The translations under genes and the position numbers were made by a program. Shown here piece by piece: positions 1 through 7,822 of a stretch of DNA of 7,822 bases (within the stretch, counting starts at the first letter, position 1; every line of letters starts with the position of its first letter). Source of the stretch: an archaeon (lineage in GTDB: Archaea; Asgardarchaeota; Hermodarchaeia; Hermodarchaeales; Hermodarchaeaceae). The notes under the pieces were generated by a model. That model saw only the letters and a list, made by a program, of their open reading frames with translations. It was not told the DNA's origin and searched no databases. The stretch spans positions 1-7,822 of the forward strand of contig JABXGX010000175.1 in NCBI GenBank assembly GCA_016550405.1, read 5' to 3'.

Positions 1-128
1 AATTCACGCAAACAGTCAAATCTATGCAAATTGAAGGCGAAGACATTGAATCCGCGCAATCGGGTCAAGCCATCGGATTAAAAGTCAAGGATCGAGTTCG
101 GATAGGTGATACCATCTATCGCATCTAG
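1..128 (+). CDS. Small translation-elongation-factor-like protein, 3' end only
   Basis: The reading frame is open from the window edge (first full codon at base 3) and ends with TAG at 126-128, giving 41 residues. The end reads ...SAQSGQAIGLKVKDRVRIGD and then TIYRI. This matches the C-terminal half of the small proteins of roughly 85 residues annotated as translation elongation factor-like, which resemble domain 2 of EF-Tu and the C-terminal domain of U32 peptidases. Their role is not well established. The pattern of a Gln/Ile strand, an acidic GEDIE turn, a GxxxGLKV strand and an RxGDxIY strand fits that beta barrel. The start lies outside the window. It could instead be the C-terminus of a U32 peptidase. 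Repeat copy A begins 16 bases after the stop. Confidence 0.6.
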   Translation, partial: FTQTVKSMQIEGEDIESAQSGQAIGLKVKDRVRIGDTIYRI

Positions 129-143
129 TGAAACTACCTTACA

Positions 144-175
144 GATCACGCCAGCACCCTGCTCCATATATTCCT
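144..175 (-). repeat. Intergenic repeat, partial copy A
   Basis: These 32 bases match copy B (2261-2292 region) and copy C (6436-6467 region) at 30 of 32 positions each. Only the left half of the element is present. Read on the minus strand, the mini-ORF start ATG (166-164) and the codons for MEQGAGVI are kept. The rest of the mini-ORF and the hairpin terminator are missing, and the sequence runs straight into the 3' end of the elongation-factor-like gene. Confidence 0.75.
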
Positions 176-285
176 GAGATAAGGAGGGTATGTTTCGTCG
201 AATGTGAATGCCTAGTCCCCTCTTTAATGCCGATAGTGGCTCAAACCTATTGGACCTCTGAACTTTCTTGGAGGAGAATGAAGAA

Positions 286-295
286 GATTAATAAT
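286..295 (+). promoter_or_regulatory. Candidate TATA box for the RAM-domain gene
   Basis: The A/T-rich stretch GATTAATAAT follows a purine run (GAAGAA), as a BRE/TATA pair would. It lies about 25 bases before the GTG at 316 and 34 before the ATG at 325. No ribosome binding site precedes either start, which fits a leaderless or near-leaderless transcript. Confidence 0.35.
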
Positions 296-315
296 CCACA
301 CGCTCAACCCTACCT

Positions 316-615
316 GTGATTGAAATGACTCCCAAAACCAAAAAACCAGCTAGAAAAGCACTCAGTGGCCCAGCCAGTGCCATTATCCTAATTGAAGTCC
401 TCCCCAAAGAACATCTCAACGTCTTACAAATCGTCAAACGCGACCTTGAAAAAATTGACGGCATCAAAGATGTCTGTGGTATTTTTGGTACCTGGGACCT
501 TTCCGCCATCATCGAAGAAGAGTCCTTTGAAGCCCTCAAAACCAAAGTCATCGACGAAGTCCGCGCCGTTCCCGGCGTCGGCAAAACGGAAACCCTCCTC
601 CGATTCCCCCTCTAA
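316..615 (+). CDS. Stand-alone Lrp/AsnC ligand-binding (RAM) domain protein
   Basis: The 99-residue protein has a basic, probably disordered N-terminus of about 20 residues. A single RAM/Lrp-AsnC effector-binding domain follows: a first strand AIILIEVLP, a helix around NVLQIVKRDLEKI, the strand pair GIKDVCGIFGTWDLSAII with the family's G-x-[YWF]-D turn, a second helix, and the closing strand GVGKTETLLRFPL. There is no helix-turn-helix domain, so it cannot bind DNA as full-length Lrp does. Known proteins of this type form oligomers that bind amino acids and may modulate full-length Lrp-family regulators. The start is GTG at 316 or ATG at 325; ATG would give MTPKTKKP... and both lie a suitable distance from a TATA-like box. 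It is the upstream neighbour of the arginine-hydrolase gene, so an arginine-related effector is possible, but that is inference. Confidence 0.85.
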   Translation: MIEMTPKTKKPARKALSGPASAIILIEVLPKEHLNVLQIVKRDLEKIDGIKDVCGIFGTWDLSAIIEEESFEALKTKVIDEVRAVPGVGKTETLLRFPL

Positions 616-715
616 CATCACTCCAAACACGTCCAAAATACTTCGCCTTAAAAACCACTCCAACAACCCCCAAAAGGAAAAACCGCACACTAATTACAAA
701 TTTCCACGAAACACC

Positions 716-743
716 AAAAAAAGAGAGAAAGGGGAGGCAAAAC
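716..743 (-). terminator. Minus-oriented T-tract terminator, diverged repeat relative E
   Basis: On the minus strand this reads GCCTCCCC, then TTTCTCTC, then seven T. It has the same pyrimidine pattern as the terminators at 1633-1669, 2198-2232 and 6375-6406. No strong hairpin precedes it. A CTGTTG-like motif about 20 bases before it on the minus strand is shared with the repeat family, so it may be a decayed copy. No minus-strand gene ends here. Confidence 0.4.
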
Positions 744-782
744 ATCACCAATTAAACGGCAACAGGAAATTGTACTGAAAGA

Positions 783-790
783 CATTAAAT
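783..790 (+). promoter_or_regulatory. Candidate TATA box for the arginine-hydrolase gene
   Basis: ATTAAAT within 783-790 could place transcription start near 810-815, inside the palindromes that follow. The alternative box AAATTAATC (818-826) would give a nearly leaderless transcript. The sequence alone does not decide between them. Confidence 0.3.
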
Positions 791-793
791 CAG

Positions 794-818
794 AGAGAAG
801 CGTTCTCTTCAAGCTTGA
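794..818. promoter_or_regulatory. Two adjoining palindromes, candidate operator
   Basis: AGAGAAgcgTTCTCT (794-808) is a perfect 6-base inverted repeat with a 3-base spacer. TCAAGCTTGA (809-818) is a perfect 10-base palindrome directly after it. They sit between or beside the two TATA-like boxes and 37-61 bases before the ATG. In archaea this is where repressors block RNA polymerase or TBP/TFB. A helical-turn spacing of about 12-13 bases between the two centres could suit a dimer-of-dimers regulator. The regulator is unknown. Confidence 0.45.
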
Positions 819-854
819 AATTAATCGAAACCCATCCCAGAAACAGAGGTTGCA

Positions 855-1610
855 ATGATGTCTCAGTATGCCGTGGTACGTGAACCTGGAGCCCAATTTA
901 CTCGCTGCATTTCTTCTCACCCATTACATCATACCGTCGATGTTGCTCGAGCACAAGCCCAGCATGCAGCGTACGTCAGCACGTTAGCTGAACTAGGGCT
1001 TGAAGTCATTCGATTACCGGGTGACCAGACCTACCCCGATTCGTGTTTTGTAGAAGACACCGCGGTCATCCACTCTGGTAAAGCCCTCATAACCCGCCTT
1101 GCCAAGAAGAGCCGGCGCGGTGAAGAAGATGCCGTTGAAGAGCTACTTCAACAGTATTTACCCGTTAAGCGCGTCATTACCCCAGGCACCCTAGAAGGAG
1201 GGGATGTGATTCGATTACCCACCCGAATCATTTGTGGGATTAGCCGGCGTACAAATCGCGCGGGTGTGGACCAGATGCAGACCTATTTTGGCATACCAGT
1301 TGATACCATTAGTGATCCCCAGCTCATCCACCTGAAAAGCCATGTCACCTACCTGAAGAATAACATTATGCTGACCACGCAAATCTACACAAACCATCCA
1401 GCTCTATCCGACTTCGAAGTCCTCATCATACCCAAAAACGAGCAATACGCTGCCAACACCCTCACCATCGACGACACGGTAATCATGCCTGCCGGATATC
1501 CCAAAACCCACCAACAAATCAAAGACGCAGGTTTCGAAGTTATTACCCTAAATATGAGTGAAATCGCCAAATGTGACGGCGCGCTTACCTGCCTGTCCCT
1601 TCTATTCTGA
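855..1610 (+). CDS. Dimethylargininase (DDAH) / arginine-deiminase-type amidinohydrolase
   Basis: The 251-residue protein has the length and motifs of the DDAH branch of the pentein (guanidino-modifying) fold, which hydrolyses methylated arginine to citrulline plus an amine through a covalent thiouronium intermediate. Visible motifs, in order, are the substrate-binding acidic segment YPDSCFVEDTAV (D62, D68), the GTLEGGDV loop with catalytic E114, the RTNRAG segment (132-137), the IHLKSHVTYL motif with catalytic H159, and the C-terminal GALTCLSLLF with nucleophile C246. All catalytic residues are present, so it should be active. Archaeal members may act on free arginine or another guanidine, so the exact substrate is open. 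A weak GAGGT (846-850) precedes two tandem ATGs (855, 858); 858 gives the better 7-base spacing. It is monocistronic and convergent with the 2156-1680 gene, with palindromes upstream suggesting regulation. Confidence 0.92.
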   Translation: MMSQYAVVREPGAQFTRCISSHPLHHTVDVARAQAQHAAYVSTLAELGLEVIRLPGDQTYPDSCFVEDTAVIHSGKALITRLAKKSRRGEEDAVEELLQQYLPVKRVITPGTLEGGDVIRLPTRIICGISRRTNRAGVDQMQTYFGIPVDTISDPQLIHLKSHVTYLKNNIMLTTQIYTNHPALSDFEVLIIPKNEQYAANTLTIDDTVIMPAGYPKTHQQIKDAGFEVITLNMSEIAKCDGALTCLSLLF

Positions 1611-1632
1611 GCCACTCACTTACATACACATA

Positions 1633-1669
1633 AACTAAGAAAAAGAGGAAAAGGGGGAGGCAAGCCTCC
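1633..1669 (-). terminator. Intrinsic terminator of the 2156-1680 gene, repeat relative F
   Basis: On the minus strand the stop codon (1682-1680) is followed by the hairpin GGAGG-CTTG-CCTCC (1669-1657), with a further G-C pair possible inside. CCCTTTTTCCTCTTTTT comes next. The segment from GCTGT through the hairpin and T tract aligns with the terminator half of the intergenic repeats. On the plus strand no T run follows the hairpin, so it is not an obvious terminator for the arginine hydrolase. Confidence 0.7.
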
Positions 1670-1679
1670 TAAAATACAG

Positions 1680-2156
1680 CTAGCGAGAATTATTCCTGCG
1701 AGCACGAATTTCCAGTCCAATCCCGAAAGCCGAGAGAAATCCTAGTACTATTGCAGCAAGCGGGAAGCCGGGAATTGGAGGTGCAGTAGCATCTGTCCAA
1801 GTGACTGACGCCATTCCAAGCTCAGCAGTTGTCGATGCCGTCTCTAACACAGTCCCATCTAATGTTTCAATCGACACTGTTAACGGATCTGAGTTCGCCT
1901 CCTGTTTGGTTAGCATGACCGACACCACCCAGACACCCGTCCCGGTACGATTCACCCGAATCACTGTATTCCCCGTCCCTTGAATCGTTTGCATCGACCC
2001 ACCAGAAGTATACGAACCAAACCAACCACCTGAATATGAAATCCGAATGTTTACGCTATCATATACAGGTACAGCAACAACAGCTCCAAGCCATAGACTC
2101 GTGATCAACATACCCAAGACAAAACAGAACACACCCCTTGAATTCAACAAACCCAC
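1680..2156 (-). CDS. Secreted beta-rich protein with PGF-type C-terminal membrane anchor
   Basis: The 158-residue protein starts with GTG (2156-2154). Residues 9-28 are a hydrophobic signal peptide, probably cut near A28. Residues 30-122 form a serine-, glycine- and threonine-rich ectodomain with alternating strands (VNIRISYSG, TVIRVNRTG, VWVVSVMLTKQ, LTVSIETLDG, MASVTWTD), which suggests one small beta sandwich. There is one N-glycosylation sequon, NRT at 69. The C-terminus has three parts: PPIPGF (126-131), the hydrophobic helix to about 150, and the basic tail RARRNNSR. This is the layout of archaeal PGF-type surface proteins that are anchored or processed at the C-terminus. I do not recognise a specific function; the strand order vaguely resembles MmpS-like domains. 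A TATA-like box lies about 28 bases upstream and a terminator follows directly, so it appears to be a single-gene unit. Confidence 0.75.
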   Translation of the reverse strand: MGLLNSRGVFCFVLGMLITSLWLGAVVAVPVYDSVNIRISYSGGWFGSYTSGGSMQTIQGTGNTVIRVNRTGTGVWVVSVMLTKQEANSDPLTVSIETLDGTVLETASTTAELGMASVTWTDATAPPIPGFPLAAIVLGFLSAFGIGLEIRARRNNSR

Positions 2157-2182
2157 CCAACACCACTAATGGACTAACCAAA

Positions 2183-2190
2183 CTTAAAAA
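2183..2190 (-). promoter_or_regulatory. TATA box of the 2156-1680 gene
   Basis: On the minus strand TTTTTAAG lies about 28-31 bases before the GTG start. That spacing places transcription start at or next to the start codon. No ribosome binding site is visible, so the transcript is probably leaderless. Confidence 0.5.
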
Positions 2191-2197
2191 GATTCAC

Positions 2198-2232
2198 CCA
2201 AACAAAGAGCGAAAGGGGAGGGTAAACCTCCC
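2198..2232 (-). terminator. Hairpin terminator of repeat copy B
   Basis: On the minus strand a perfect 6-base stem, GGGAGG / CCTCCC (2232-2227 with 2221-2216), has a 5-base loop and is followed by CCTTTCGCTCTTTGTTT. Transcription from the repeat would end just upstream of the TATA box of the 2156-1680 gene, insulating that promoter. Confidence 0.55.
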
Positions 2233-2294
2233 AAACAACAGCCACTCTAGAAGCAGCGATGGATCACACCAGCACCCTGCTCCACATATTCCTT
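2204..2294 (-). repeat. Intergenic repeat, full copy B
   Basis: Bases 2215-2267 are identical to 6389-6441 (53 of 53). Over 2215-2294 the match to copy C is 76 of 80. On the minus strand the order is AAGGAAT, a mini-ORF from GTG (2285-2283) to TAG (2249-2247) encoding 12 residues (VEQGAGVIHRCF), about 14 bases, and then the hairpin terminator. AGCAG and CTGCT within the mini-ORF can pair, so the element could also be a structured RNA. Confidence 0.85.
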
Positions 2295-2317
2295 CTTTTG
2301 AACCAACGGGTGGATTG

Positions 2318-2611
2318 ATGGTAGGTTTTAATCGTCTTTTCCAGAAAACCATAATGCAAATAACGAAACCAAATGCGGCGCTCCTAACTGAGGTGATCCA
2401 GAACTTGATTACATCAAATCCCACCTGTACACACTGCCCCATTCACCAAAAACGTCAAGAAACCTCACCCGAAGCCAAACTCCGCCCCCAACGCAAATTC
2501 ACTATTCACACCGAACTCGACTTCATCTGCCAATATGAATGCAAGAAAAAATTGCCTTGGTTAATTTTTTTGCAGATACAAGATTTGGATTTATGCTTCA
2601 AGTCTTTATAG
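2318..2611 (+). CDS. Doubtful small ORF with CxxC and CxxxC pairs
   Basis: An ATG at 2318 opens a 98-codon frame. It contains TCTHCP and FICQYEC cysteine pairs spaced about 37 residues apart, as a small zinc ribbon might have, and a basic middle part. The base composition of 2430-2540 (rich in A and C, poor in G and T) resembles the 3' halves of the accepted plus-strand genes. Against it: no clear ribosome binding site, no family recognised, an A/T hairpin inside its last third (2541-2573), and an overlapping minus-strand frame (2442-2194) that also has a plausible hydrophobic helix. It may be a decayed gene or chance. Confidence 0.2.
   Translation: MVGFNRLFQKTIMQITKPNAALLTEVIQNLITSNPTCTHCPIHQKRQETSPEAKLRPQRKFTIHTELDFICQYECKKKLPWLIFLQIQDLDLCFKSL
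2541..2573 (+). terminator. A/T-rich hairpin, possible terminator
   Basis: GCA, a 2-base bulge, then AAAAAATT (2546-2553), a 9-base loop, AATTTTTT (2563-2570) and TGC form an 11-pair inverted repeat with a T run on the plus strand. It would also present T residues on the minus strand. It could end transcripts entering the spacer before the 2786 promoter. Confidence 0.35.
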
Positions 2612-2726
2612 CCCTCAGATCACTAAATTCCGGCGTTTAACCAAATTATATTGTATTTTGCGCTATTGATGGAACGAATATCCCCAAAGAACCATAAAGA
2701 AACCTTTAATTCTAATTGAAATCCAC

Positions 2727-2734
2727 TTTATAAG
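2727..2734 (+). promoter_or_regulatory. TATA box of the 2786 gene
   Basis: TTTATAAG follows an A-rich, BRE-like stretch (GAAATCCAC). It predicts transcription start near 2755-2758 and a 5' leader of about 30 bases carrying the ribosome binding site at 2774. Confidence 0.6.
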
Positions 2735-2773
2735 ATAGCATTGTCTACCAAAGAACGCCTCTAGAGGGTAAAA

Positions 2774-2778
2774 GAGGT
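2774..2778 (+). promoter_or_regulatory. Ribosome binding site of the 2786 gene
   Basis: GAGGT lies 7 bases before the ATG at 2786, which fixes the start. Unlike several leaderless neighbours, this gene has a leadered transcript. Confidence 0.6.
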
Positions 2779-2785
2779 CATATTA

Positions 2786-3163
2786 ATGGCAAAAATCAAT
2801 GGACGCAATCTATTATTTTCATTAGCTCTAGCAACCGTCATGACTGTTATAATCTTTGGAGGACAGCTTGCTTTAGTCTCTGCAGGGTCTGGTGACTCAC
2901 TTGCTTGGGATTATGATTCGGTTCCACTAGTAATTGCTACTTACGCACGAGCCTATTGCCAATTCGAAGATGATCTGTTCATCGAAGACACCTGGGATCC
3001 CTTCGGACATGTATATTGGTTTCCTGGAAACACACCAGCAGGTTCAGGAGATACCAACTACTTCTCAACAACACACTGCTACCGGTATGCATGGGGCAAA
3101 GCTTACAATATCTATCAACAATTAATATTCTGCTCTAGCAGAGCCGATATCTATCCTTGGTAA
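2786..3163 (+). CDS. Small secreted three-cysteine protein, unknown function
   Basis: The 125-residue protein has a classical signal peptide: MAKINGR, then a hydrophobic core at 9-31, with likely cleavage after VSA33. The mature part of about 92 residues has no second membrane helix or anchor, so it is probably released. It is rich in aromatic residues (seven Tyr, four Trp and five Phe after residue 40), Gly and Asp, with cysteines at 58, 98 and 116. An odd number of cysteines leaves one free, or makes a disulfide-linked dimer possible. I recognise no family. It has its own TATA box, ribosome binding site and terminator and sits directly upstream of the membrane-protein/ABC cassette. It could be a ligand, substrate or toxin-like cargo of that system, but this is inference from position only. 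Confidence 0.75.
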   Translation: MAKINGRNLLFSLALATVMTVIIFGGQLALVSAGSGDSLAWDYDSVPLVIATYARAYCQFEDDLFIEDTWDPFGHVYWFPGNTPAGSGDTNYFSTTHCYRYAWGKAYNIYQQLIFCSSRADIYPW

Positions 3164-3165
3164 AC

Positions 3166-3200
3166 GGTAGGCAAAGGAGACCTACCCTCCCTCTTTTTTT
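3166..3200 (+). terminator. Intrinsic terminator of the 2786 gene
   Basis: GGTAGG (3166-3171), a 9-base loop and CCTACC (3181-3186) form a perfect 6-base stem followed by CTCCCTC and seven T (3194-3200), two bases after the stop codon. The pyrimidine layout matches the minus-oriented terminators elsewhere in the window, which helps orient those. The T run lies 25 bases before the ATG at 3222 and could double as a TATA-like element. Confidence 0.8.
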
Positions 3201-3221
3201 AGATGGGGTTCAATTGATAAG

Positions 3222-4127
3222 ATGAGGAGAGAAATATTGAGAAACACATTACAATCAAGATTAATGGCCCTCTTCATTACCCTATTATTGATAGCCTGGG
3301 TACCGACCACCAGCCCAGTGTCAACTTCAAGTACTGCTAATCCTGACACTTCTTGGCTACAACCTGGAACTTATGCTGAGTACGGTCTAGCAGATAAAAC
3401 CCTAGGTGTCCACTGTTATAACGCCTCCCTTGATACCAGTAACGCCTCCCTCTGGAAAGATGGAGGTTTTGACGAATTTTATCTTGTTGATTCAGAAGAA
3501 GGAGATTCTTTTGTCTATCGCTGGGAGGGCATCACGAGAAGTGGCGTCAATATTACATTACATATTTTCATGAATGTAACGAATTGGCTGGTAGATGAAT
3601 TCGATGCCACAATTAATACAGAAACGGGTGAGGTCTACATAGCAAATCAGTTCACAGGCTATTCATGCTTATGGCTTGCAGATGAACAAATACCATTATC
3701 TGAAACAATCGTATCAAATCCTGCTCTCAGCTTTGAGATATCACAAAAGAGCTATTCGCCAGGCGGGATGGAAACCATACAGGGATTCCAGCCCTGTTGG
3801 GATATTTTGGGTGATGAGGAGGAATTTCGACCGCCCCAAGTGGGATCCAGAACCAGATTCCAAGTAAATCTTTTTTTTGACGCAGATGTTGGTCTCTTAC
3901 TCCTAGGGGGTGGAGAACTAATTCTGCCTGCACCACCCGAAGCAAGGTTGATCGACTTTGGTGGGAGTTTGGTGCTTATAGAAACGAATGTAGATTTAGG
4001 CCCGCCAGCGTTTAATCCAGCAAGTCTACTACCAGGATTTCTACTTCTGGGTGTGATGGTAGTACTAATATTGGTTCTTACCATTATAATTTATGTAACA
4101 CGACAAAGGAGAGGACGAAGGCGGTAA
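3222..4127 (+). CDS. Secreted ectodomain protein with C-terminal membrane anchor, ABC cassette
   Basis: The 301-residue protein has a signal peptide (basic MRREILRNTLQSR, hydrophobic core 14-27). Residues about 35-265 form an extracellular domain with strand-rich segments and four N-glycosylation sequons (N67, N74, N110, N118), followed by an anchor helix at about 271-293 and the strongly basic tail TRQRRGRRR. The ectodomain opens with WLQPGTYAEYGL, a motif I associate with archaeal surface proteins encoded near ABC transporters, and has cysteines at 65, 149 and 192. The family is not identified. Topology is outside with a short cytoplasmic tail, suiting a substrate-binding or accessory subunit. 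No ribosome binding site precedes the ATG; M15 is a possible later start. The stop is 40 bases before the ATPase gene, so the two are probably co-transcribed. Confidence 0.75.
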   Translation: MRREILRNTLQSRLMALFITLLLIAWVPTTSPVSTSSTANPDTSWLQPGTYAEYGLADKTLGVHCYNASLDTSNASLWKDGGFDEFYLVDSEEGDSFVYRWEGITRSGVNITLHIFMNVTNWLVDEFDATINTETGEVYIANQFTGYSCLWLADEQIPLSETIVSNPALSFEISQKSYSPGGMETIQGFQPCWDILGDEEEFRPPQVGSRTRFQVNLFFDADVGLLLLGGGELILPAPPEARLIDFGGSLVLIETNVDLGPPAFNPASLLPGFLLLGVMVVLILVLTIIIYVTRQRRGRRR

Positions 4128-4167
4128 AACGGGTTAAACGGCGAAGGCAGTTGAGTGGTAACATTAG

Positions 4168-5133
4168 ATGAGTGTAATTGTTCAAACCCAGGAATTAACA
4201 ATGCGTTTTGGTGCAGTAAAAGCCCTTGACTCAGTGAGTATTATGTGTAACGAGGGAGTGACTGCAATTCTTGGTCCTAATGGAGCAGGAAAGACCACTC
4301 TGATTCGAGTGCTACTCGGGCTTCTTCCGCCTTCATCAGGTTCCGCTCAATTGCTTGGTCAAGACTGTCAACGATACGCAGAGCGAATCCATGAAAAAGT
4401 AGGAGTGCTGCACGAACACCCTTTCTTTCCTCAGCATTTTACAGCAGAACAGCTGTTGCATCTTATCTGCCGAATTTATAGAATCTCGGATTCAACACAC
4501 AGAATAAAAGATATTTTACAGAGAGTTGGATTATGGGATCATCGGGATAGACGAATTGGTCATTTTTCAGCAGGAATGAATCAACGCCTCGGATTAAGCC
4601 AGGCGCTAGTGATGGAACCAAAATTAGTCATTCTCGATGAACCAATGGCAAATCTAGATCCACTTAGCCGCCTTCATACTTTGGAAATCATTCAAGAGGC
4701 GTGGACCCAGCACAGAATATCGTTTCTAATTCTTTCCCATGATCTCTACTATTTAGAGCAAATTTGTACCGATGCAATTTTTTTGCAGGGAGGGCAAGTG
4801 CGTTTATCTGGTCGATTGGACGACCTCTTGGGACAGCAGAATCGAATTGAAGTTGTTGTAGTTCTTGATGAATTGAATGATGCAACATTTAAAGAAATTT
4901 CTGATCTTCCTTCAGTGGAAACCGTTGAAAGAACAAATGGCGTTACTATCAATTGCAGGGTGAAGGATGCCCGAATCTTCCAAAACGAACTATTCAACCT
5001 AATATTACCACAAAAGAATCTAATCAGGAGTTTTATTATACAGCGTGAGGATTTAGAACGATTGTATCAAAGGGTCATTGGAGGTAACGAAGACGGAATC
5101 CAGAGGACTGGAGCGCTTAATAGCGTGGAATAA
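4168..5133 (+). CDS. ABC transporter ATP-binding protein
   Basis: The 321-residue protein has an ABC ATPase domain at about 3-220. Walker A is GPNGAGKTT (36-44). At the Q-loop, GVLHEHP (79-85) carries Glu83 in place of Gln, as is common in NatA-like ATPases. The signature is FSAGMNQR (133-140), a variant of LSGGQ. Walker B is LVILDE (153-158) with catalytic E158; the D-loop is ANLDP (161-165) and the switch His is H191 in LSHD. About 100 more residues follow, the regulatory C-terminal extension of many ABC-2 exporters. It binds and hydrolyses ATP at the cytoplasmic face to drive the permease encoded next, whose start overlaps its 3' end by 56 bases. That overlap implies translational coupling and a 1:1 complex. 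The substrate is unknown. Only a weak ribosome binding site (GTGGT) precedes the ATG. Confidence 0.95.
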   Translation: MSVIVQTQELTMRFGAVKALDSVSIMCNEGVTAILGPNGAGKTTLIRVLLGLLPPSSGSAQLLGQDCQRYAERIHEKVGVLHEHPFFPQHFTAEQLLHLICRIYRISDSTHRIKDILQRVGLWDHRDRRIGHFSAGMNQRLGLSQALVMEPKLVILDEPMANLDPLSRLHTLEIIQEAWTQHRISFLILSHDLYYLEQICTDAIFLQGGQVRLSGRLDDLLGQQNRIEVVVVLDELNDATFKEISDLPSVETVERTNGVTINCRVKDARIFQNELFNLILPQKNLIRSFIIQREDLERLYQRVIGGNEDGIQRTGALNSVE

Positions 5134-5857
5134 GCTGACAGCATTATTTCAATGGGAATTCTGGGAAACTTACAGATTACCGTTATTTGAACTGGTAGTT
5201 GCCATATTAGTGGTGCAAGTGATAGGATTTGGTGAACCATCTCTCCTTACAAGTAATCTTTGGGGAGCGGTGTTCCATGTTGCTCAAGTTCTCGATTTCA
5301 GTTTCTTAACGGGGATGCTATTCCTCACTGTCCTTCTCACTACAAGTATCGCGGGGTCATTAGAGCAGGGAGAGATGAGACTACTTGCGTCCTTTCCCCT
5401 GTCACGAAACAAGATTCTGTTGACTAAAATCTTGGTAAATTTTGGAGTGTTTTTCTTGGTCTATGCCTTTATTCTCTGCATTCTTTTGGGTGCTTTAGCA
5501 CCTGCTGCATTGCTGTGGCCTATATTCGTGGTTTTACTCCTAGGCATTGCTGCATACCAGCTTTTCTTTACTAGCATCGCAGTATTTATCGCGGTAATAA
5601 CCAAAAATATCAAGATAAGCTTGTTAGTTGTATTGATATTCTGTCTAGCTATCCTACTCGGACTTAATATGTTTATTCTGCGAGGGGGAGCCTTCCTTAC
5701 TACCCTTGTAGTAACATACGGTGAACTGTTCTGGGAGGGCTTCATTTTCAGCAGTTCAGTTGAAGTGCCATTTTTGCCTGTTTTAGTGGTTCATGGTGTG
5801 ATGACTGCTCTTCTCTTTGGAATTACCTTATTTCAATTCCGCCGAATGGAGCTGTAA
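5078..5857 (+). CDS. ABC-2 type transporter permease
   Basis: The 259-residue integral membrane protein has about six helices: roughly 36-52, 74-94, 117-140, 143-172, 180-200 and 232-253. The cytoplasmic segment EQGEMRLLASFPLSRNKILL (96-115) is the coupling-helix motif of the ABC-2/NosY-like permease family (E-x-G-x4-L-x2-x-P-x-SR), where the ATPase docks. The N-terminal amphipathic stretch WNKLTALFQWEFWETYR is also typical. The only ordinary start codon in frame ahead of that stretch is TTG at 5078, inside the end of the ATPase gene. A perfect GGAGGT (5080-5085) sits just after this TTG instead of before it, so the start is uncertain. It should form the membrane channel with the upstream ATPase. 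A 3-base gap separates it from the next gene. Confidence 0.9.
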   Translation: MEVTKTESRGLERLIAWNKLTALFQWEFWETYRLPLFELVVAILVVQVIGFGEPSLLTSNLWGAVFHVAQVLDFSFLTGMLFLTVLLTTSIAGSLEQGEMRLLASFPLSRNKILLTKILVNFGVFFLVYAFILCILLGALAPAALLWPIFVVLLLGIAAYQLFFTSIAVFIAVITKNIKISLLVVLIFCLAILLGLNMFILRGGAFLTTLVVTYGELFWEGFIFSSSVEVPFLPVLVVHGVMTALLFGITLFQFRRMEL

Positions 5858-5860
5858 CAA

Positions 5861-6424
5861 ATGGGAACCTGTCTCCGCGTCTCCATCTTAATCCTTGTTT
5901 TAGGTGTTAGTGTCGTGTGTGGAACAATTATTGAAGGTTTCCAGTCCGTTCCTGTCATAGACAGGATGGACCACAATATCCCCGGAGGCTCTGAAAAAGT
6001 AATTTTTGTAAACCGGACACTCTTTGCTAGAGATTATTCGCTCTTAGTCCAGGTAACTAGTGGAGGTCCTATAGACATTGTATTCCAAGAACAAGGCGGA
6101 TTATATCAACGCATTGTGAATAGCGTGATAAGCTTCACTGAACAGGCCCACCTCCCCTTTCGAGGAACCTTTGAACTACTAATTCGCAACCTTAACATCT
6201 CGCTTTCCATTATTCGGGTAACGTTCACCCAGCACGGACTCGACCAACAGCAATTAATCGTGGGACAAGTTCTCTTTGCCATAGGATTCAGTGCTGCACT
6301 AGCTTGCGTTGCAAAAGACTGGATGACTAGACCACCAAACCATGAAGAACACCACGAATCGTCTAATAGCACCCAAAAAAGGGAAAAGGGGGAGGGTAAA
6401 CCTCCCAAACAACAGCCACTCTAG
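5861..6424 (+). CDS. Membrane-anchored accessory protein of the ABC cassette
   Basis: The 187-residue protein has an N-terminal hydrophobic segment (5-24; signal peptide or membrane helix). Residues about 25-128 form an extracytoplasmic beta-rich domain with two sequons (NRT at 51, NIS at 112). A membrane helix follows at about 132-151, and then a charged cytoplasmic tail rich in His and Glu (HEEHHESSNS). The layout resembles a one-domain beta sandwich on a helix. No family is recognised. GGAG (5848-5851) lies 9 bases before the ATG and the permease stop is 3 bases upstream, so it is translated with the ABC genes and probably contacts the transporter. Residues 172-187 (QKREKGEGKPPKQQPL) are encoded by repeat copy C, so the native C-terminus may have been replaced or extended when the repeat arrived. 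Confidence 0.75.
   Translation: MGTCLRVSILILVLGVSVVCGTIIEGFQSVPVIDRMDHNIPGGSEKVIFVNRTLFARDYSLLVQVTSGGPIDIVFQEQGGLYQRIVNSVISFTEQAHLPFRGTFELLIRNLNISLSIIRVTFTQHGLDQQQLIVGQVLFAIGFSAALACVAKDWMTRPPNHEEHHESSNSTQKREKGEGKPPKQQPL
6375..6406 (-). terminator. Hairpin terminator of repeat copy C
   Basis: On the minus strand a 6-base stem, GGGAGG / CCTCCC (6406-6401 with 6395-6390), and a 5-base loop are followed by CCTTTTCCC and six T. On the plus strand it lies inside the last codons of the membrane-protein gene and is not followed by T. Confidence 0.55.
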
Positions 6425-6468
6425 AAGCAGCGATGGATCACGCCAGCACCCTGCGCCATAAATTCCTT
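6375..6468 (-). repeat. Intergenic repeat, full copy C
   Basis: This copy matches copy B at 76 of 80 positions over 6389-6468, with 53 identical bases in a row. On the minus strand it holds the mini-ORF from ATG (6459-6457) to TAG (6423-6421), MAQGAGVIHRCF, and then the terminator. A TTAAAG about 25 bases upstream on the minus strand could be its own promoter. The left end lies 49 bases before the GNAT gene. Confidence 0.85.
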
Positions 6469-6487
6469 ATTCGTTCCCCAAATGCTT

Positions 6488-6494
6488 CTTTAAG
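6488..6494 (+). promoter_or_regulatory. TATA box of the GNAT gene
   Basis: CTTTAAG is centred 26 bases before the ATG at 6517, the spacing of a leaderless archaeal transcript. No ribosome binding site is visible. Its complement CTTAAAG is the candidate promoter for the divergent mini-ORF of repeat copy C. Confidence 0.5.
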
Positions 6495-6516
6495 GACCGT
6501 TTAGAAAGCATCCCTG

Positions 6517-7140
6517 ATGACACGCCCGATTGACATCGAAATCGTAGACATTACACGGACACCTCAATTTGAGACACTCCTCTATCGATGTCTTGCTCCA
6601 ATGCCTTCAAAGAAATATCAAAATCGCATCAACTATCTCCAAAAAGCCATCCCCAAAGGATTTCGAAAGAAAATCCTCTTCACCAATAACGTGCCAGTGG
6701 GTCAAATTGAATATGCCCCCATTGAAGCATCAGGATACCCCATCCACGGAAAAGAGATGATTGTCCTCCATTGCCTTTGGGTATTACGAAAAGCTAAGGG
6801 CCACCGACTCGGACAACACCTCATAGACGCCATGATCCAAGACTACCCAGAAACCAAAGCATTCGTTACTCTCGGACTCACCAACCACTGGAGCCCTTGG
6901 CTCAAAAAAAACCACCTAGAACTCTACGACTTCACATCCATCGACTCCATCAACGTCTCCCACAAAACCAAACACACTGGCGAATGCTTCACCATCCACC
7001 TCATGTGGCGCCCAACCCCAACAGCGAACAAGCGCCCCACCTGGAATCCAACTCATCTTCTGAAAGGCATAACCTTTTGCAGGGCACACCCCCTCTACCA
7101 CCCACAACACCTGCAGATGCAAGAAATTCTACGCCTCTGA
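6517..7140 (+). CDS. GNAT family N-acetyltransferase, YoaP-like
   Basis: The 207-residue protein has an N-terminal GNAT domain (about 5-125). The central strand VPVGQIEYAPIEASGYPI is followed by the acetyl-CoA motif VLHCLWVLRKAKGHRLGQHL (near 84-103). Its R-x2-K-G-x2-[LI]-G pyrophosphate loop fits motif A, and the following helix is LIDAMIQDYP. LTNHWSPWLKKNHLELYDF is the later GNAT strand-turn where the sequence leaves the standard fold. The C-terminal quarter (SHKTKHTGECFTIHLMW, then FCRAHPLYHP) matches what I remember of archaeal GNAT/YoaP-like proteins with conserved Cys and His. It transfers an acetyl group from acetyl-CoA; the acceptor is unknown. It looks full length. Its 3' half is very rich in A and C. 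It is monocistronic with a leaderless promoter, and repeat copy D starts directly after the stop. Confidence 0.8.
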   Translation: MTRPIDIEIVDITRTPQFETLLYRCLAPMPSKKYQNRINYLQKAIPKGFRKKILFTNNVPVGQIEYAPIEASGYPIHGKEMIVLHCLWVLRKAKGHRLGQHLIDAMIQDYPETKAFVTLGLTNHWSPWLKKNHLELYDFTSIDSINVSHKTKHTGECFTIHLMWRPTPTANKRPTWNPTHLLKGITFCRAHPLYHPQHLQMQEILRL

Positions 7141-7178
7141 AAAAAAATAAAAAAAAGAGAAAAGGGAGGACTGGCTTC
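7141..7178 (-). terminator. T-rich terminator for the hydrolase gene and repeat copy D
   Basis: On the minus strand CCTCCCTTTTCTC is followed by about fifteen T with one interrupting A. Only a weak hairpin (GAG..CTC with a G-T pair) precedes it. It lies about 160 bases after the hydrolase stop codon and would end that transcript. Confidence 0.6.
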
Positions 7179-7236
7179 TCAACAACTGACTACCTAGGAG
7201 CAGCAAAGGATTACGCCAGCTTCATCTTCCATGAAT
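7152..7236 (-). repeat. Intergenic repeat, diverged copy D
   Basis: It aligns with copy C through the purine tract, the CTAG-GAGCAGC segment and TACGCCAGC. The mini-ORF keeps exactly 39 bases, from ATG (7232-7230) to TAG (7196-7194), with 10 substitutions and no gaps, giving MEDEAGVILCCS. The hairpin is weakened but the T tract is stronger. Confidence 0.65.
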
Positions 7237-7334
7237 TAATTCACCATATTTTCACCTACACGGCAAATCTTCATTTCAGAATGTGAAACTCATCTCAACC
7301 TTGCTTAATAGGCCACGATGAATTATTTTAGGCT

Positions 7335-7822
7335 TCAAATGCGAATTTCTTCACCCACTCTCACATGACGATACGTGGCCCCAAAGTGTTCATGAAACAT
7401 TTTGAGACTGAGTGGCGAACTATCATGTGGTGATAAGGCTACAATCTTGGGTTGTCGTTGTTTCAAGAGCGCAATATTTGCTTGCAACTCTTTCCTTGTA
7501 ATAGGGTTCCATGGTTCTTTTCCTGTGCCAAAATACGAATAAGGGCTCATTCCTGCAATTTCAATTGGACCGCCTTCAACGGGGTAATGGAGTCCGCCAA
7601 GTATACCATAAAGCGGCGCATCAAATAGCGCTGCAACCCGGTCAAGAAGCTTCGGTAAGGTTTGATGACCACAGCCCACAGTCAATACTATGCCTTTCTT
7701 TTCCACATTTACGGCTAGTGCCTGTTCTGGTTCTAGCCCGGAGCCTAAGAAAAATATGGCATTCGTTATACACCCAATGGTCGCAACACCAGGTCCGACA
7801 ACTTGTGGATCTTTTGTATGAA
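7335..7822 (-). CDS. MBL-fold metallohydrolase, C-terminal part
   Basis: The frame is open from the window edge (first full codon 7820-7818) to TGA at 7337-7335, giving 162 residues. Visible motifs are TVGCGHQTLPKLL (the GC[SG]H metal-ligand loop), the GGLHYP turn, and ALSPHDSSP carrying the last His. This set matches the branch of metallo-beta-lactamase-fold proteins that includes 7,8-dihydropterin-6-yl-methyl-4-(beta-D-ribofuranosyl)aminobenzene-5'-phosphate synthase of methanopterin synthesis and other general MBL hydrolases. The first HxHxDH motif must lie in the missing N-terminal part. The substrate is not determined. A GTG at 7706 is in frame but is internal, since conserved-looking sequence continues upstream of it. 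The transcript should end at 7141-7178. Confidence 0.8.
   Translation of the reverse strand, partial: HTKDPQVVGPGVATIGCITNAIFFLGSGLEPEQALAVNVEKKGIVLTVGCGHQTLPKLLDRVAALFDAPLYGILGGLHYPVEGGPIEIAGMSPYSYFGTGKEPWNPITRKELQANIALLKQRQPKIVALSPHDSSPLSLKMFHEHFGATYRHVRVGEEIRI

Follow-up and report, generated by a model that had tools for sequence, protein, structure and literature searches.

Short repeats in a Hermodarchaeum-like Asgard archaeon as stranded actin 3' ends, possibly left by repeated replacement of the gene end

The window analyzed here, i.e., the whole stretch of 7,822 nt, comprises positions 1 to 7,822 (forward strand) of contig JABXGX010000175.1 (GCA_016550405.1) from a Hermodarchaeaceae archaeon (Asgardarchaeota). 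It contains several genes and, between them, ~90-bp repeated units that all share one orientation (Table 1). Over 100 nt, copy A (2198-2297) agrees with copy B (6372-6471) at 89% identity, and a count on the sequence bore out the 53 identical bases in a row reported for this pair. With A (2204-2294) as the query, B matched at 83 of 91 positions and C (7151) at 54 of 91, whereas 100 dinucleotide-shuffled versions of the window, searched on both strands, gave at most 43. Copy D matched A and B at 30/32 positions each (shuffle maximum, 22). Two stretches that contain the terminator half only, E and F (1633-1683), matched A at 24/28 and 35/51 positions (shuffle maxima, 20 and 30); F follows closely on the end of the minus-strand ORF 1680-2156, a place at which one would expect a terminator. 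These shuffle-tested matches establish the repeat family as real. They agree with the first-pass annotation, which had described an archaeal family with copies of different ages and unrelated genes between them; in line with its remark that no copy flanks a transposase, none was present among the ten window proteins (Pfam scan). The single orientation held as well, with all units on the plus strand as read there, but the meaningful strand proved to be the minus strand.

Table 1. Features of the 7,822-nt window (positions in window coordinates)
Feature	Position	Strand	Basis
Copy A, coding part: displaced actin last-exon tail, K-KEYVEQGAGVIHRCF-stop	2247..2297	-	Translation/codon comparison
Copy A, 3'UTR, terminator hairpin (GGGAGG-TTTAC-CCTCCC), and the T-rich tract that follows it	2200..2246	-	
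Copy A, flank matching 5' flank of G069 endonuclease ORF (L160:12373-12417); possible fossil of a lost endonuclease element	2324..2372	+	Alignment score 51
Copy B, coding part: KEFMAQGAGVIHRCF-stop; contains the end of the opposed ORF 5861-6424	6421..6468	-	Translation/codon comparison
Copy B, 3'UTR and terminator	6374..6420	-	
Copy C, coding part in decay: FMEDEAGVILCCS-stop, preceded by an in-frame TAA	7194..7241	-	
Copy C, 3'UTR with T-rich tract; no conserved hairpin	7147..7193	-	
Copy D, truncated: homology extends no further than EYMEQGAGVI, with loss of the stop and terminator	144..175	-	
E, relative of the terminator half that lacks the hairpin; either a decayed copy or an ordinary terminator	716..743	-	
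F, relative of the terminator half that has the hairpin; immediately follows minus-strand ORF 1680-2156	1637..1672	-	
EF-Tu-domain-2-like gene, 3' end; also in G068, G069, and G001 loci	1..128	+	
Lrp/AsnC ligand-binding domain gene; absent between same neighbours in G068	316..615	+	Pfam and locus comparison
Dimethylarginine dimethylaminohydrolase (DDAH) family gene; same neighbourhood in G068	855..1610	+	Pfam and locus comparison
GNAT acetyltransferase gene between copies B and C	6517..7140	+	Pfam

Read on the minus strand, each unit is, with near certainty, the 3' end of an Asgard actin gene, comprising the last codons, the 3'UTR, and the terminator; the units start close to the start of the last actin exon. 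A and B read KE(Y/F)xxQGAGVIHRCF-stop, an ending that recurs in nine further Asgard genomes; C and D have decayed. A profile of the right half found one strong match in each of those nine genomes, the actin gene's own end, which reads VTRKEYxEQGAxxIHRCF-stop and variants thereof, and a Pfam actin search of seven of the nine located this match, in 7/7, within actin or a 3' piece of it. The units are thus not intergenic in origin, contrary to their original description. No actin core was recognized in the window; continuity with the core was seen for copy 1 of genome G069. An alternative reading of the minus strand, as a small RNA that has a promoter and terminator of its own, was dropped once the actin match appeared. 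No Rfam match reached the gathering score in the window and ten related loci, and folding of the units on either strand gave no strong signal. We also rejected the left half as a generic terminator of the lineage, given that the sole match to a strict pattern across three genomes fell on the array contig of G001. In view of the rarity of that pattern, decayed copies are one reading of E and F, ordinary terminators the other.

The profile search of Asgard genomes that the first-pass annotation had proposed recovered the repeats, but arrays like that of the window, with unrelated genes between units of one orientation, were found in at least 3 of 227 genomes only (G001, G068, and G069, one of them Candidatus Hermodarchaeum yapensis), with the strong copies on one contig in each. 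This restriction, together with the actin identity, speaks against the earlier picture of an unnamed intergenic element spreading through the genome. The search scored the best 25 candidates per genome under strict filters, so that decayed arrays can be missed; the array genomes returned the same strong copies when re-searched with up to 150 candidates. Weak matches on a second G069 contig (C38:2650-2695, E 0.003), on G001 C10 (E 0.4), and in 26 further genomes (E ~0.005-0.1) were kept outside the copy counts, as was a G068 match (C86) inside a long ORF. Phage and plasmid collections and viral contigs contained no match to the repeat, and an exact 27-base pattern had none in the genome contigs.

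The actin gene runs off the contig end in all three array assemblies, the actin contigs of G001 and G068 ending inside actin. Only the G069 array contig reaches actin coding sequence, and there the array lies directly downstream of the gene. The gaps between copies mostly hold other genes (Lrp, DDAH, GNAT, ABC transporter, epimerase, and NYN). Two such stretches look inserted between neighbours adjoining elsewhere, away from actin: D with the Lrp gene, which is in the window and not in G068, and a copy with the epimerase gene, which lies between CDF and EF-Tu-like genes in G068 and not in G001.

The order in G069 is actin core, its own last exon (copy 1), an opposed ORF, and displaced last exons (copies 2 to 5). 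The opposed ORF (L160:12468-13694; 408 aa), on the opposite strand to actin between copies 1 and 2, had no Pfam match. Its structure model (mean pLDDT, 88.5) suggests a LAGLIDADG homing-endonuclease fold: all 16 PDB matches at E ≤ 0.001 were LAGLIDADG proteins (endonucleases, maturases, intein endonucleases, and WhiA), at 10 to 14% identity and query TM-scores of 0.28 to 0.36. This predicted endonuclease was seen in one of the four arrays, with none in the window (tblastn) and none in G001 or G068. However, the 49-nt flank of copy A resembles its 5' flank, with a score of 51 against a maximum of 27 in 1000 mono-nucleotide shuffles. Among 12 copy flanks compared, the endonuclease flank was clearly kept at A only, and the flanks of A and G069 copy 2 were the only pair alike. 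G176, G178, and G179 encode free-standing distant relatives of the endonuclease, and no actin was seen beside such relatives in seven loci inspected by eye.

Comparison of the G069 and G068 actin genes suggests that the former is mosaic. Identity is 302/311 in the core and 30/40 over the last 40 aligned bases (Fisher P = 5e-6, with the cut of 40 chosen post hoc), a drop along the gene that would mark an apparent join; there is also an earlier mismatch patch (positions 93-123). The apparent join lies ~47 codons before the stop and ~27 codons upstream of the displaced-copy start, so the two do not coincide. The 3'UTR and terminator of the functional end differ from those of copies 2 to 4, to which copy 1 is at most 0.67 alike over the whole unit. 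Its coding end is closest to the genome's own displaced copies 2 and 3 (52/57 and 51/57; G001_H1, 49/57) and, on this comparison, is not plainly foreign. Tail-versus-core codon identity among nine Asgard actins gave no clear sign of tail transfer between distant Asgards.

For 7 of 12 copies the nearest relative is in another genome, as with G069 copy 2 and G001_H1 (0.86) or G069 copy 3 and window copy A (0.81); A and B are 0.88 alike over the whole unit. Similarity to the functional exon drops with distance in G069 (96.5, 93, 66, and 44.5 for copies 2 to 5) and in G001 (86, 56.5, and 21.5, with the actin side assumed), is flat in G068 (50.5, 55, and 51.5), and shows no monotonic trend across the window (40 for C, 67.5 for B, 68.5 for A, and 48.5 for D). 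Eight of the 14 displaced copies are frameshifted, stopped, or truncated; the other six keep an open frame. Change among frame-keeping copies is mostly synonymous, with 117 synonymous versus 33 non-synonymous codons over the 21 pairs of seven copies, which are not independent. In G069 the counts were 4/0 (copies 1 and 2), 5/0 (1 and 3), and 5/0 (2 and 3), whereas window copies A and B differ at one synonymous and three non-synonymous codons.

We infer that the repeats are actin 3' ends stranded by repeated replacement of the gene end in a Hermodarchaeum-like Asgard archaeon, a mechanism to which we assign a probability of roughly 0.55, the identification of the ends themselves being near certain. 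A homing-endonuclease element, or DNA recombining at its break, would invade actin near the last exon, and the incoming DNA would supply a substitute last exon and terminator, such that actin stays intact. The old end would be displaced downstream and decay there, and repeated rounds, with later gene gain and shuffling in the gaps, would build the array. The endonuclease gene would usually be lost, the stretch matching its 5' flank being left at copy A. The G069 gene order, the mosaic-looking actin, its differing terminator, the mostly synonymous divergence, the cross-genome nearest relatives, the drop in similarity with distance in G069 and G001, and the flank of copy A favour such replacement. 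Against it count the other genes in most gaps, which homing alone does not explain, the two stretches that look inserted away from actin, the lack of an actin core or endonuclease in the window, the order of decay there, which does not fit, and the flat order in G068.

A serious rival, possible though in our view doubtful, is that the actin 3' region was duplicated, in tandem or as a segment, or that actin paralogues decayed, and that genes were then inserted between the fragments, with the endonuclease as a bystander. It gains weight because the G069 join misses the displaced-copy start and because the functional coding end is closest to the genome's own copy 2, with copy 3 near to it. The single contig and orientation of the strong copies, the eight broken copies, and the likeness of A and B also fit duplication, and G069 may hold two actin alleles or paralogues, as suggested by its contig ends C9 and C32, which overlap at 0.945 identity. 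Duplication accounts less readily for the low similarity of copy 1 to copies 2 to 4 and its other 3'UTR and terminator, for the likeness of G069 copies 2 and 3 to copies in other genomes, for the mostly synonymous divergence, and for the G001 and G068 array contigs, on which the Pfam search found no actin core.

A continued use of the copies as last exons, whether alternative or joined in trans by archaeal splicing, is improbable. Short introns do occur in the actin of some of these genomes (a bulge-helix-bulge in G175, two introns in G069), and the six open frames with mostly synonymous change and the unit starts near that of the last exon agree with such use, but the majority of displaced copies are broken, the G069 actin has its own contiguous last exon, and the flanks are alike for A and G069 copy 2 only. 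A related and rather speculative idea, which we regard as unlikely, is that alternative or trans-splicing, or recombination, gives the actin gene access to distal last exons, which would form a store of C-termini next to an endonuclease reshuffling them. We consider it very unlikely that the units are gene cassettes, either integron-like or moved by an integrase, that attach at the actin end: orientation is single, units are ~0.5 to 4 kb, and gene order is shuffled between genomes, but RYYYAAC and GTTRRRY occurred together in 0/13 units (one unit had the first, one the second), and tyrosine recombinases (PF00589) were found only on non-array contigs in 3/3 genomes, two of which (G001 and G068) lack the actin-array stretch. 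The MITE-like or terminator-like mobile repeat first proposed, which the short, dispersed units and the near-identical pair A/B had suggested, can be set aside as most improbable, the sequence being an actin gene end with strong copies restricted to one contig per genome and with terminal inverted repeats mostly within shuffles (lowest counts 13, 25, and 39 of 300 across 13 units).

The proposed replacement of the actin end has parallels in known systems. As far as the excerpted account goes, in mORFs of fungal mitochondria (Allomyces atp6; Glomus atp6, atp9, cox2, and nad3) an endonuclease ORF arrives with a replacement 3' end that extends the native core of the gene, while the original end is found displaced downstream and differs in sequence from the new one (PMC3630166). 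G069 likewise has a LAGLIDADG-fold ORF between a functional and a displaced actin end. In contrast to the mORFs as described there, the host is an archaeal chromosome and the gene actin, the predicted endonuclease is on the opposite strand and in one of four arrays, the unit includes the terminator, and there are several displaced ends with unrelated genes between them. The predicted endonuclease shares its fold with archaeal intron and intein LAGLIDADG endonucleases (I-DmoI and I-Tsp061I are among the fold matches), and two TEG motifs can be read as its LAGLIDADG positions, but it is free-standing, lacks a Pfam match, and has no intron or intein seen around it. Elements integrating at tRNA gene 3' ends restore the displaced end, which stays as a direct repeat, and repeated use gives arrays. 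The actin arrays would be similar in these three respects but involve a protein gene, and no integrase was found on the array contigs. Integron cassette arrays share the one orientation and varied genes between short repeats, but no unit here has both attC core boxes, and the array contigs lack a tyrosine recombinase.

Among the literature matches listed (titles and abstract openings, with subscription journals thinly covered), none mentions an endonuclease directed at actin, arrays of actin last exons, or introns in an Asgard actin gene. The debate over how eukaryotes arose relies heavily on actin, and here, in Asgard archaea, the end of this gene appears to have been targeted repeatedly, probably by a selfish endonuclease. 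If true, this would be a cellular, archaeal case of the gene-end replacement known from fungal mitochondria, and would explain why actin runs off the contig end in all three array assemblies. Since the gene is cut off there, the actin C-terminus may be missing or mis-annotated. Mosaic tails would call for caution in actin trees, and annotation also needs to take account of the short introns that some of the genes contain.

The first-pass annotation had described a family of repeats in a single orientation, and both points stand: copies A and B are 89% alike over 100 nt, C to F are weaker, all exceed 100 dinucleotide shuffles, and all face the same way. A profile built from the right half of the unit (as drawn on the plus strand) and searched across 227 Asgard genomes found several strong copies on one contig in three (G001 C45, G068 C65, G069 C32), whereas nine others (G175, G079, G009, G084, G077, G078, G167, G174, G080) had a single strong full-length match each (E of 2e-10 to 1.3e-4; a second, weak match in two), which is the end of actin. 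On the opposite strand these nine matches read ...VTRKEYQEQGAxAIHRCF-stop and variants, which we take to be the actin C-terminus, and Pfam actin matched the gene or its 3' piece in all seven of the nine genomes tested. Copies A and B read KEYVEQGAGVIHRCF-stop and KEFMAQGAGVIHRCF-stop on the minus strand, each followed by a 3'UTR and terminator. It follows that actin's final coding stretch makes up the right half and its terminator the left, and the repeats are almost certainly actin 3' ends. Pyrimidine tracts numbered 37 on the coding strand versus 9 on the other in 371 co-directional spacers, with rough ORF calls, from 80 loci (Asgard, Bathyarchaeota, Thermoplasmatota, others, one bacterial), which fits terminators.

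Coordinates of features in the window and in other Asgard loci
Feature	Location	Coordinates	Strand	Remark
Copy A	window	2198-2297	minus	
Copy B	window	6372-6471	minus	
Copy C	window	~7151	minus	
Copy D	window	144-175	minus	
Terminator-half relative E	window	716-743	minus	
Terminator-half relative F	window	1633-1683	minus	
DDAH	window	855-1607		
Gene-poor stretch	window	2372-2785		between copy A flank and ORF 2786
ORF	window	2786-3163		
Hairpin	window	3171-3200	plus	then CCCTCCCTCTTTTTTT; 3' of ORF 2786-3163
ABC-transporter stretch	window	4168-5857		ATPase, adjoining weak ABC-2-type permease match
ORF opposed to actin	window	5861-6424		ends within displaced actin end (6375-6424)
CDF gene opposed to actin	G068, L114			ends within displaced actin end (4804-4850)
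Actin gene stretch with short intron	G175, L161	5400-5800		
Actin gene stretch with short intron	G077, L190			
Actin gene stretch with short introns	G069, L160	13701-14278		

The window, 7822 nt long, is DNA of an Asgard archaeon; the closest named relative of its DDAH protein, among the best 120 of 5390 matches, was a protein of a Promethearchaeota archaeon (P0005, 82%). A second search of G001 (Candidatus Hermodarchaeum yapensis), G068 and G069, scoring up to 150 candidates, returned the same strong copies plus one weak match each on G069 C38 and G001 C10. Four arrays are thus known, the window included. They hold 14 displaced copies, not counting E and F (window A-D, three in G068, three in G001, one of them partial, and copies 2-5 in G069); one further end, G069_1, is functional. 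Six displaced copies (A, B, G001_H1, G069_2, G069_3, G069_4) can still be read through in frame from KEY to the stop, and the other eight are broken. Genes between copies vary from genome to genome, and some neighborhood genes recur in changed order: an EF-Tu-like gene near all four arrays, DDAH in the window, G068 and G001, CDF in G068 and G001, and NYN in G069 and G001.

Contig C32 of G069 terminates within an actin gene, the part present spanning residues 255-408 of the Pfam model and, by our reading, holding two short introns, one of 25-27 nt, the other of 30 nt. The order along actin is core part, stop, terminator, an opposed 408-aa ORF, and copies 2, 3, 4 and 5 with other genes between them. 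The ORF had no Pfam match and no PDB match by sequence. Its AlphaFold model (13 sequences, mean pLDDT 88.5) matched 16 PDB structures at E<=0.001, all LAGLIDADG proteins (bI3 maturase, I-Tsp061I, PI-SceI, I-WcaI, I-AniI, I-SceI, I-DmoI, inteins, WhiA), at query TM-scores of 0.28-0.36 and with little identity in sequence; since WhiA is among them, the fold alone is no proof of an endonuclease. Among 5.8 billion proteins six relatives were found, G069's own included, the longest contigs of the other five being 1.8-3.1 kb. Distant relatives in G176, G178 and G179 (L193-L195, L199-L202; 22-27% identical where aligned) are free-standing, mostly ~500 aa, several per genome in two of the three, with an additional N-terminal part that looks like a helix-turn-helix domain.

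We favor, at a probability of about 0.55, serial replacement of the actin 3' end linked to this putative homing endonuclease. The actin cores of G069 and G068 are identical at 302/311 bases, then at 30/40 over the last aligned stretch (p = 5e-6, the 40-base cut being picked after the fact), the comparison being short because the G068 contig ends there. In G069 the drop starts ~47 codons before the stop, ~27 codons upstream of the displaced-copy start; homing involves co-conversion of sequence flanking the site, which could explain it. The 3'UTR and terminator of G069_1 differ from those of copies 2-4. Frame-keeping copies differ by 117 synonymous versus 33 non-synonymous codons, summed over the 21 pairwise comparisons, not independent of one another, among seven copies chosen for being intact (A versus B alone, 1 and 3). 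The nearest relative of a copy lay in another genome in 7/12 cases, in its own in 4/12 and was tied in 1/12, and similarity to the functional exon declines with distance in G069 and G001. Beside copy A, 49 nt resemble the sequence flanking the putative endonuclease ORF of G069 on its 5' side (score 51; 1000-shuffle maximum 27), and eleven other copy flanks scored 12-22. In mORFs, mobile endonuclease ORFs of fungal mitochondria that carry a substitute gene 3' end, the order is core, inserted end, endonuclease, displaced end, according to PMC3630166, a layout like that of G069, where the putative endonuclease ORF lies between functional and displaced ends. No endonuclease was found in the window by tblastn. 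The actin-end array may work like a mORF, with cutting by the endonuclease predicted.

The main rival, duplication of the actin end or decay of an actin paralogue, is less likely but serious; the functional coding end of G069 most resembles copies 2 and 3 of its own array (52/57 and 51/57), a result that duplication too would produce. Several further observations sit poorly with serial replacement. The endonuclease has been seen in a single array; actin runs off the contig end in G001 and G068, so that the crucial stretch is missing there; no actin core was recognized in the window; copy C, nearest the expected actin side, is yet the most decayed; G068 has no similarity gradient along its array; and tail codons of distant Asgards gave no clear signal of transfer. 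CDF and EF-Tu-like genes are adjacent in G001, whereas a copy and an epimerase lie between them in G068, and EF-Tu-like and DDAH genes are adjacent in G068, whereas D, Lrp and E separate them in the window. These contrasts point to later shuffling, or insertion away from actin, and homing alone leaves the other gap genes unexplained.

The hairpin in the window, an ordinary-looking terminator, resembles the left half of the repeat in reverse complement. The gene-poor stretch held no convincing gene and is possibly gene debris, and small, secreted-looking ORFs precede the ABC-transporter stretch. In each of the three array genomes contigs break off within actin (at the start of G001 C30, the end of G068 C21, and in G069 at the start of C9 and the end of C32), as expected if the locus has several alternative continuations; in an actin search of nine other genomes, pieces reached contig ends, or came within 43 bases, in G174 and G071 too. 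Some Asgards carry short introns near the actin 3' end, which went unmentioned among the literature matches listed. That of G175 is predicted to fold as a bulge-helix-bulge, with TCA and AAA as bulges and a 4-bp GTAC helix; excising it would restore MYS-VW.
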